64,000 nucleotides of DNA from Rivibacter subsaxonicus. GTDB taxonomy: Bacteria; Pseudomonadota; Gammaproteobacteria; Burkholderiales; Burkholderiaceae_C. The position numbers and the translations under genes are program-made. The stretch covers positions 1-64,000 of the forward strand of contig NZ_SHKP01000009.1 in NCBI RefSeq assembly GCF_004217215.1, written 5' to 3'. Of the stretch, positions 14,037 through 16,421 are shown piece after piece; the stretch's first letter is position 1, and each line of letters begins with the position of its first letter. The notes under the pieces are model-generated. The model saw nothing but the letters and a program-made list of their open reading frames with translations, searched no databases and was not told the DNA's origin.

Positions 14037-14927
14037 TCAGCGCAACTGCATCCACAACGGCAGCGTCAGCATGCCGATCAGCGTCGACAGCGTCACCAGC
14101 CCGGCGACGAAGGCGCCGTCGCCGCCCATGCGGATCGCCAGCACGTAGGCGCTGGAGGCGGTCGGCATCGCGGCAAAGGCCAGCAGCACCGCGGATTGCG
14201 CCGGCGGCAGCGACAGCAGTGCGATCAGGCCGAGTGCGGCCAGCGGCAGCAGCGCATGGCGGATCGTCAGCAGCGCCGCGGCCAGGCGCGGCGAGGCCGT
14301 CACGCCGCCGAGTTGCAGGCCGGCGCCGACGGCCATCAGCCCGAGCGGCAGCGCCGCGGCGCCGATGCGTTGCAGCGTCAGCGCCAGCGGATCGGGCAGC
14401 TGCAGTCCGGCGAGATTGGCCAGCAGGCCGCCGACGGTGGCGATGATCAGCGGGTTGCGCAGCAGCTCGCGGCCGACCCGGTGGCCGCCGTGGCGCGCCA
14501 GCGGCCAGACCGCCGCGACGTTGCAGACCGGCACGCAGAAGGCCACCAGCAGCGCCATGCCGGCCACGCCGGCGGCGCCGCCAAAGCGCTCGGCCAGCGC
14601 CAGTGCGACGTAGCTGTTGAAGCGGAACGCGGTCTGCGCGCCGGAGGCGTGTAGCCGGGCGTCGATGCCGGGCAGCAGCCGCAGCGCGTAGGCCAGCGCG
14701 ATGCCGACGCCGACCACGGCCAGCCCGCCGCCGATGAGCTGCGCGCTCGGGCCGAGTTCGAGCGGGCTGCGCGCGATCGAGCTGAACAGCAGCACCGGGA
14801 ACAGCAGGTAGTAGACGAGGCGCTCGACCGCCTCCCAGACCGCGCGGTCGAGCGCGGTGTGGCGGCAGACGAGGTAGCCGATGACGATCAGCAGGAAGTC
14901 GGGCAGCAGCAGCAGGATGTCGCGCAT
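14037..14927 (-). CDS. AEC-family (auxin efflux carrier-like) transporter
   Basis: A 296-residue inner-membrane transporter with about ten hydrophobic segments arranged as two five-helix halves. The N-terminus (LLLLPDFLLIVIGYLVCRH) and the central break with FRFNSYVALALAERFGG fit AEC/malonate-type carriers of small carboxylates. Substrate unknown. The ATG at 14927 lies only four bases from the end of the 350-bp inverted-repeat element, so its upstream regulatory region is supplied by that element. No strong ribosome binding site is seen. Confidence 0.85.
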   Translation of the reverse strand: MRDILLLLPDFLLIVIGYLVCRHTALDRAVWEAVERLVYYLLFPVLLFSSIARSPLELGPSAQLIGGGLAVVGVGIALAYALRLLPGIDARLHASGAQTAFRFNSYVALALAERFGGAAGVAGMALLVAFCVPVCNVAAVWPLARHGGHRVGRELLRNPLIIATVGGLLANLAGLQLPDPLALTLQRIGAAALPLGLMAVGAGLQLGGVTASPRLAAALLTIRHALLPLAALGLIALLSLPPAQSAVLLAFAAMPTASSAYVLAIRMGGDGAFVAGLVTLSTLIGMLTLPLWMQLR

Positions 14928-14931
14928 GCGC

Positions 14932-15281
14932 CTAGGGCCTGTTAACGCTACCGGAGGGCTCGCGCCCGGGTCGCGCAGGCCGCAGGGGTAGGCGCGAGAA
15001 AGGACGCGTGCTCTTGCACGCAACGACCGAGCAACGCCGCCCTGCGGCCTGCGCGACCCGGGCCCGAAGGGTGATCCCAGGAAACTGCGGCCCTCGGCGT
15101 TGCAAAGCTCGCCGGGGGCTGAGCCCGGACATGAACAGTCCTGAGGACTGGTCATGCCTGGCGAGGAGCCCGAGCTCTGCGAGGGCGCGGCCTGCAAGGC
15201 CGACCCCGGCTGCGCTTTGCGCCTTGATGGCCTTTGTTTCCTGGGTCACGCGATCCCTCCGGTAGCGTTAACAGGCCCTAG
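14932..15281. mobile_element. 350-bp MITE-like element with 27-bp perfect terminal inverted repeats
   Basis: CTAGGGCCTGTTAACGCTAC... (14932-14958) is repeated exactly, inverted, at 15255-15281. The outermost CTAG is itself a palindrome and could be a 4-bp target duplication flanking an element that begins GGCCTGTTAACG. Inside are a 24-bp perfect inverted repeat (14964-14987 with 15040-15063) whose loop holds a further GCGTGC/GCACGC hairpin (15006-15021), and a stem-loop with ATGA-x-CAGTCC / GGACTG-x-TCAT (15131-15155). No transposase is encoded. It fills the gap between the AEC transporter and the Bug-type gene. Confidence 0.75.
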
Positions 15282-15422
15282 CCTAACCGCCGAAGCGGGC
15301 GCCGTCGGGGGCCGACATCGGGCTTTCCATGAGTCGGGGCACTTGCGCGGACGTGGCAGAGTCGGAGCATCGCGCTGCGCGGCTTGCACGCGCCCCACCA
15401 TCGTCACCAGGAGCCTCGTCAC

Positions 15423-16421
15423 ATGCACCGACTGCCCCGCCGCCACCTCGTCGCCCGGCTGCTGCCTCCCGTCCTTGGCCTGATGGGCCTGCTCGCCGCC
15501 CCGGCTGCCGTGCTGGCCCAGGCCTATCCGGCCAAGCCGGTGCGGCTGGTGGTGCCCTTCGCGCCCGGTGGCACCACCGACATCATCGCCCGCGTGCTGG
15601 CCGAGAAGGTCAACGCGCCGCTCGGCCAGACCCTAGTGGTCGAGAACAAGAGCGGCGGCGGCGGCTCGATCGGCGCGCTCGAGGTGATCCGCGCGCAGCC
15701 GGACGGCTACACCCTGGGCATGGCGACGGTCTCGACCACCGCCTCGAATCCCGCGATCAATCCGAAGATCGGCTACGACCCACTGAAGGACTTCACGCCG
15801 ATCATCAACATCGCTGCCACGCCGAACGTGATCGCGGTGCACCCGAGCTTCCCGGCGCGCGACTACAAGAGCTTCGTCGCCGAGCTCAAGAAGAATCCCG
15901 GCAAGTACAGCTACGCGAGCTCGGGCACCGGCGGCATCGGCCACCTGCAGATGGAGCTCTACAAGAACCTGTCGGGCACCTTCGTCACGCACATTCCGTA
16001 TCGCGGCGCCGGCCCGGCGCTCAACGACACGGTGGCCGGCCAGGTGCCGGTGATCTTCGACAACCTGCCCTCGGCGCTGCCCTTCATCAAGGACGGGCGC
16101 CTGATCCCGATCGTGGTCGCGGCGCCGCAGCGCCTGGCGACGCTGCCGAACGTGCCGACCTTCAAGGAAGTCGGCCTCGAGCCGGTCAACCGCATGGCCT
16201 ACTACGGCGTGCTCGGCCCGAAGAACCTGCCCAAGGACGTTGTCGACAAGATCCACTCGGCGGTCAGGCAGACCGTGGCGCTGCCCGACGTGAAGAAGCG
16301 CATCGAGGACACCGGCTCGCTGATCGTCGCCAACACGCCGGCCGAGTTCACGAGCCAGATCGATGCCGAGTACAAGGTCTACAAGGACGTGGTCGACAAG
16401 CAGAAGCTCAAGCTGGAGTGA
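15423..16421 (+). CDS. Bug-family tripartite tricarboxylate transporter substrate-binding protein
   Basis: A 332-residue periplasmic binding protein of the Bug/TctC family, which is hugely expanded in Burkholderiales. A signal peptide with a twin-basic start and an Ala/Leu-rich core ends near VLAQA-YP. Family hallmarks follow: [19 protein letters not shown], the [13 protein letters not shown] loop that binds the carboxylate ligand, and [26 protein letters not shown] lies upstream of the ATG at 15423. No TctA/TctB membrane genes are nearby, so it is an orphan; ligand unknown. A clear intrinsic terminator follows. Confidence 0.93.

Follow-up and report, generated by a model that had tools for sequence, protein, structure and literature searches.

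A putative family of non-autonomous transposable elements in which a conserved folded core is joined to exchangeable ends, seen from a copy in Rivibacter subsaxonicus

A 350-bp gene-less element in a 64,000-nt stretch of the Rivibacter subsaxonicus genome (contig NZ_SHKP01000009.1, positions 1 to 64,000; hereafter the window) is best explained as a whole as a member of a family of non-autonomous transposable elements that combine a conserved folded core with exchangeable ends, a reading to which we give a probability of roughly three in four. Movement of these elements by an IS5-type transposase is likely, and we also consider it likely, a little less firmly, that the fold is under selection. 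An elaborate fold is kept while its letters and the ends vary, which suggests that the fold itself is functional. The nested second repeat of the window copy, the near-constant length of 270 bp and the occurrence of the same folded core behind unlike ends had not been foreseen by the initial annotation of this locus.

The terminal inverted repeat of the window copy is perfect over 27 bp (14932-14958 and 15255-15281; 33 bp at 97% when extended) and encloses a perfect 24-bp inverted repeat (14964-14987 and 15040-15063); both had been described initially, and they are the only exact inverted repeats of at least 18 bp with arms within 600 bp in the whole window. An 11-bp stem with one mismatch, reported along with them, lies at 15131-15141 and 15145-15155. 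The 350 bp (14932-15281) consist of a 269-bp element and a nested 81-bp second repeat, here repeat B, which sits in the tip of the second hairpin (15120-15200) and accounts for the extra length of the window copy over the other R. subsaxonicus copies. Folded as RNA, the 350 nt reach a predicted -255 kcal/mol against -166 (sd 6) for shuffled sequences (z -13.9; 0 of 100 shuffles as good). Both hairpins match R1, our covariance model of the 100-nt hairpin, the second despite its insert, with rough E-values of 1.6e-12 and 5.7e-8. The features are collected in Table 1; the element likely affects the Mem_trans gene at its left.

Table 1. Features of the window copy and its neighbours (window positions; E-values of model R1 are rough).
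Feature	Positions	Strand	Basis
Whole element, TA to TA, 348 bp (267 bp + 81-bp nested insert)	14933..15280	.	Alignment with own-genome copies; TA limits from target statistics and another copy's empty sites
Left terminal inverted repeat, 5' arm of stem P1 (TAGGGCCTGTTAACGCTACCGGAGGG...)	14932..14964	+	Repeat match; such ends in 19/150 family genomes
Right terminal inverted repeat, 3' arm of stem P1	15249..15281	-	Repeat match
First 100-nt hairpin HP1, core type CAAGGCGC..GCAACGCCG	14964..15063	+	Model R1, E 8.7e-11 (genome search) and 1.6e-12 (second search)
7-nt mini hairpin P3 (CC-GAA-GG), midpoint of the uninterrupted element	15064..15070	.	Geometry of other copies; sequence and fold here
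Second hairpin HP2, inverted relative to HP1, split by the nested repeat	15071..15249	-	Model R1 on the - strand, E 5.7e-8
Nested 81-bp repeat B (TGAGCCCGGACA-hairpin-TGCCTGGCGA...GCCTGCAAGGC)	15120..15200	+	Absent from other own-genome copies aligned there
Neighbour gene, Mem_trans family; start codon (ATG) ~5 nt from the left element end	14037..14927	-	
Neighbour gene, TctC-type receptor, divergent	15423..16421	+	

Further copies had been worth looking for, and the element is multi-copy both in R. subsaxonicus and in its relatives. Beyond the window copy, the draft genome (3.94 Mb) contains six elements that measure 266-270 bp, a 427-bp one and truncated copies. The 427-bp copy (G000:C1:218570-218996) contains N and runs of G or C in its middle, a low-quality stretch where strong hairpins may have spoiled the assembly. 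Of 150 family genomes, 19, R. subsaxonicus included, contain the end TAGGGCCTGTTNRCRCTAC (reversed control pattern: 0 matches), and paired ends in the family genomes are mostly ~270 bp, rarely 169 or 57 bp, apart. Scanning species genomes for end pairs with a spacing of 255-285 bp returned 106 intact copies; of these, 102 have lengths of 266-274 bp and four of 282-284 bp, although the whole range was allowed. The 80 copies whose hosts are listed by name come from Burkholderiales, Gammaproteobacteria (including Alcanivorax, Azotobacter, Nevskia, Solimonas and Pseudomonas flavescens), a Zetaproteobacterium MAG and Acidobacteria; every acidobacterial genome listed is a metagenome assembly, with misbinning possible, though several separate assemblies are involved. 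Searches of plasmids with copy L158, of phages with copy L127 and of viral contigs each gave 0 matches. Plasmid records with partial matches numbered three for L110 and one for L127.

The insertion target is TA within Y-TA-R, and TA is duplicated. On the 5' side of TA the base counts are C 70 and T 30 (n = 106 copies), on the 3' side G 76 and A 24 (n = 105). The CTAG at both ends, at first read as a possible target duplication, is thus the preferred context; as a 4-bp duplication it was rejected, the outer Y and R often being unlike at the two ends and empty sites carrying one TA. The evidence from empty sites comes from copy L127, not from the window site: three other Variovorax genomes are gapless there with a single TA at ~85% identity, from which we conclude that the duplication is TA. 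Among the 10 loci checked for L127, a fourth is also gapless and has TA, at 71% identity; of the rest, one shows a gap of 3 nt, four have more gaps than that and one is unaligned. The proposal to look for empty sites in relatives was therefore borne out for L127, and none was found for the window copy. Two other candidates were discarded: many genomes span the joined query for copy L164 of P. flavescens, with 0 of 7 loci checked gapless at the junction, and for L106 one Variovorax locus is gapless at the junction with TC for TA and has gaps elsewhere. Note that another Variovorax genome (G416, C1:3237498-3237757) has, at the stop-codon TA of the L127 site, a diverged member of the family, either a second insertion or an old one.

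We then compared the ends with those of insertion sequences (ISs). In G030, an 827-bp IS5-type IS has 18-bp ends, TAGGGCCTGTTAACACTA and its reverse, that match the element ends, and its transposase, which has DUF4096 and DDE_Tnp_1 domains, spans two frames at a run of A. Azotobacter vinelandii has 7 copies of a related 831-bp IS5-type IS. Its right end, GTAGTGTTAACAGGCCCTA, terminates 270-bp elements of that species too, and its left end shows 2 differences within its first 17 positions. An 861-bp IS of G049, ending AGAAGCTGTTTTAA and with a PF01609 match, has ends resembling those of one G049 element. Among known systems, the IS427 group of IS5 comes close to the partner-type IS, through the two-frame DUF4096/DDE_Tnp_1 transposase and the shared ends; it is comparable to the partner only, which was not found in R. 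subsaxonicus. These ISs support the early suggestion that an element without transposase is moved in trans by an IS5-group enzyme. PF01609 matches are present in G010, G030, G042 and G049; no PF01609 transposase was found in R. subsaxonicus, G007, G034 or G003, and the G030 transposase has no match in R. subsaxonicus. Among 11 PF01609 loci compared, only the ISs of G030 and G049 had ends like elements of their own genome; in G010 and G042 the IS ends did not resemble those of resident elements. The expected IS with the same ends thus exists in G030 and A. vinelandii and was not found in the genome of the window copy; as no donor IS was found there, the window copy is probably immobile, that is dormant, in R. 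subsaxonicus at present. At G030:C1:905863-906851 (L086), where the IS lies at a contig end, its left end is duplicated 162 bp upstream.

The interior of the elements was also compared with the ISs. When five cores were aligned by blastn to the ISs of G030, A. vinelandii and G049, the best match had E 0.055 and covered 15 bp, and model R1 has no match in these three IS loci. In 60 genomes, R. subsaxonicus among them, the model has matches in 36 at E ≤0.001 (best 5e-16; E-values rough). Of the best 150 matches, 94 belong to 47 pairs of neighbours separated by 7-8 nt; the hairpins are inverted in 44 of these pairs and point the same way in 3. The other 56 matches are without a partner within that list. 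Same-direction pairs are few, and hairpin inversion is therefore not essential; they lie at G013:C1:753264, G013:C13:76156 and G015:C1:3692735, and, like L150 and L182 below, look as if one core had flipped within its stem. R. subsaxonicus has 32 model matches, the 30 listed comprising 20 in 10 inverted pairs 7-8 nt apart, 4 in two wider pairs and 6 alone; at G000:C1:1163409-1163694 the hairpins of a pair are 85 nt apart instead of 7. When 60 stretches around matches were examined (two are the same element and some overlap), 54 passed the terminal-repeat filter, L337 and L346 weakly, and 6 failed. Elements around model matches measure 265-281 bp.

The same core stands behind differing terminal repeats, namely AGAGCGTGTTTGCGATC in G007, AGAGCTCATTTCATAAAT in G042 and both AGGACTCGCTAATGGAT and AGAAGCTGTCTTAACCC in G049; further end types are GAACGTGTTCACGATC in G010 and GCAGGCTGTTGAAATACC and AGGGTCTATCGACACATG in R. 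subsaxonicus. We infer that the ends are exchangeable because like cores carry unlike ends, and the element is not simply a shrunken IS, since its core has no significant similarity to the three ISs and is found behind different ends. The initial label of MITE accordingly holds insofar as the element is short and gene-less, with IS-type terminal inverted repeats and a TA target; in the strict sense, where the interior is an IS remnant, it fails for the three ISs compared. Weaker model matches number 69, 132 and 145 in G018, G023 and G025, respectively. The G023 and G025 copies that were aligned (L304, L305 and others) seem to be single hairpins within other terminal repeats (CCTAAATCCGGCAGTT; TAGTGCAGTGTTC).

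In the minimum-energy folds of the 106 copies, the terminal stem closes a junction of three branches in 94 cases; two branches are seen in 11 and six in 1. The common predicted geometry is a four-way junction of a terminal stem of ~32 bp, a ~100-nt hairpin, a 7-nt mini hairpin and a second ~100-nt hairpin, and 86 of 112 elements (the 106 copies and six from R. subsaxonicus) satisfy strict limits on it. HP2 is mostly HP1 reversed, and each, read inward, runs stem - CAAGGCGC .. small hairpin .. GCAACGCCG - stem; judged by eye, one core is in the opposite sense in L150 and L182, i.e. 2 of 26 representatives are same-direction. Forms of 169 bp have a single hairpin (3 folded), and a 57-bp spacing of ends also exists.

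Covariation was assessed on alignment A1, which contains 46 hairpins from 23 elements at 51% mean column identity; it omits the two R. subsaxonicus representatives and L182, whose second-hairpin core is reversed, and keeps L150, which aligns badly. Paired cells amount to 92.4%, against 56.2% after shuffling and 37-43% when the arms are slid (0 of 500 shuffles as good), so that the covariance test proposed at the outset finds the stems kept by paired changes and the idea of a folded cassette gains support from the copies. Cells with both sides changed number 470 against 149 in shuffles, and the covariation score is 0.842 against 0.205 (0 of 500 in both cases). Counting base pairs with any both-side change gives 27 of 30 against 26.3 when shuffled; alone this count is uninformative, because shuffling gives as many (235 of 500 shuffles reach 27). 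Pair counts were made on the 86 of 112 elements chosen for the junction fold, 26 being dropped, with 26 representatives less than 75% identical to one another. The shuffled controls share this fold-based choice of elements; the model matches in other genomes do not. In the 26 diverged elements, the Watson-Crick match of an arm to its own partner arm is 89% in HP1 and 91% in HP2, against 66% and 71% with another element's arm, the best mispaired control arms overlapping real arms in score.

The mismatches are unequal between strands. Read inward, they are 79 G.T to 16 A.C in HP1 and 48 to 27 in HP2, whereas terminal stem P1 has no such wobble bias (28 G.T to 40 A.C); the main stem of A1 has 40 G-U to 14 A-C (binomial p 0.0005, ignoring relatedness). 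This strand-unequal wobble favours action as RNA or as a single strand that is read inward from the ends.

The strongest rival is arm-to-arm copying of DNA without selection: the element would be an ordinary MITE with incidental inner hairpins, whose complementarity is kept by templated palindrome correction. The match of the element ends to those of IS5-type ISs fits such a MITE, and copying explains symmetric ends well. Like cores can indeed bear unlike ends within a single genome. In the pair L361/L362 of G030, with a core 95% alike, both ends change, with 8 changes in step and 2 not, as copying would produce, and in L338/L340 of G042 (core 93%) all 6 end changes are in step and 0 are not. 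Over all 38 pairs from one genome whose cores reach 80% identity, end positions changed in step number 119 of 1140 and those changed at one end only 126, counts that are not independent since the pairs share elements; in most of the G007 set and in L284/L333/L335 of G050 the ends are nearly unchanged. Copying explains less well the fixed geometry and the strand-unequal wobbles. A mere MITE also sits badly with a core that lacks significant similarity to three partner-type ISs and is common to elements with unlike ends, and with the wide constancy of the core motif, of the 7-8-nt spacer and of how long each hairpin is. On balance we regard this rival as unlikely.

Alternatively, the fold could act on DNA, extruded hairpins joining the ends for the transposase or aiding precise loss of the element. 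One R. subsaxonicus copy does fold as single-stranded DNA into a similar junction (z -13.7), the spacing of the ends is near-constant, and the two-fold symmetry of most elements would suit a site for a DNA dimer. ISs with the same ends nevertheless lack the hairpin, the 169-bp one-hairpin forms and the 57-bp end spacing exist, and the strand-unequal wobble is better explained by RNA, which leaves action on DNA with rather low odds. Least probable, and in our opinion unlikely, is that the core is a structured RNA gene (a regulatory or processing RNA) using transposon ends merely to spread: covariation of a strength typical of structured RNAs, the conserved core motif and the high-copy hairpins with still other ends in G018, G023 and G025 speak for it, but the window copy shows no sigma-70-like promoter and one weak terminator-like site, and Rfam has no family above the gathering threshold either for window positions 14700-15500, with sub-threshold miRNA matches only, or for 14 other element loci.

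For the transposable element with a functional fold, the following scheme can be drawn. An IS5-type transposase acting in trans would cut at the terminal repeats and insert the element at TA. The fold would work as RNA (or as a single strand): a transcript arriving from either side would usually meet first a hairpin in the same 'inward' orientation, and this hairpin could cap, insulate or process the end of the message, with little harm done and the element persisting. That the elements act as RNA by capping or insulating transcripts is a tentative guess, with some support. More doubtful is the wider proposal of a mobile class defined by its fold, in which paired 100-nt hairpins, usually inverted, would be re-dressed with available IS5-type ends, both ends changing together, and would have spread over Pseudomonadota and apparently Acidobacteriota, acting via the first hairpin RNA of an incoming transcript.

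Non-autonomous bacterial elements are usually viewed as decaying remnants whose insides are unimportant. Unlike that view, an interior shape is held here over great distances while the ends vary. If the main reading is true, the family offers a test system for palindrome upkeep, i.e. selection on RNA or DNA structure versus arm-to-arm copying, and for how gene-less elements change transposase, as well as for why some elements enter stop codons harmlessly.

With IS5-type bacterial MITEs the elements share short length, the lack of a gene, inverted IS ends, a TA-type target and inferred movement in trans; they differ in that their interior is a conserved fold, common to elements with different ends and lacking significant similarity to the three ISs. 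NEMIS is a name used with Correia elements, whose target is TA. Correia and ERIC elements are likewise small repeats with folded transcripts; a review describes such transcripts, their cleavage by RNase III in the case of Correia, and effects of ERIC at gene 3' ends on mRNA (PMC10969869). The present elements are set apart from Correia/NEMIS and ERIC, as described, by ~270 bp, a four-way junction and two 100-nt hairpins. REP/BIME palindromes, as portrayed in two papers, are also dispersed hairpins, often of alternating orientation and high copy number, with tyrosine transposases (PMC3733652, PMC2817692); REPs measure 20-40 bp, whereas here whole elements have terminal inverted repeats and a TA target, so that on size and terminal repeats they fall outside that class. 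A review cites the Polaromonas JS666 genome paper for MITEs. No description of the family was found in open-licence papers, searched also with end and core stretches as text.

Insertions are frequent in stop codons: 60 of 106 elements have one at at least one end. In a controlled test requiring an in-frame stretch of at least 100 codons with coding-like base periodicity, TA falls in the stop codon at 70 of 196 ends, whereas the control, Y-TA-R sites of the flanks, gives 149 of 1555; another frame also exceeds the control (39 of 196 ends at 200 or more codons, against ~9.5%). Because the first element base after TA is G, the stop stays TAG and the insertion is therefore mild. This test took the place of an analysis of ORFs restored on element removal (up to 2.5 kb), which was rejected since those read in detail were mostly antisense frames. 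Neighbour genes are convergent in 29 of 84 cases against 119 of 569 control pairs, a count that carries no weight because predicted frames can run on unchecked where the gene finder reaches the element.

Repeat B, which interrupts the window copy, is a separate repeat and a conserved hairpin module, present elsewhere in R. subsaxonicus (C5:107984 and C1:981749) and in other family genomes, among them G011, G030, G005 and G034. Judged by eye, the letters of its stem vary in pairs. In G011, it often opens with the apparent TGA stop of a gene, and one case is in tandem.
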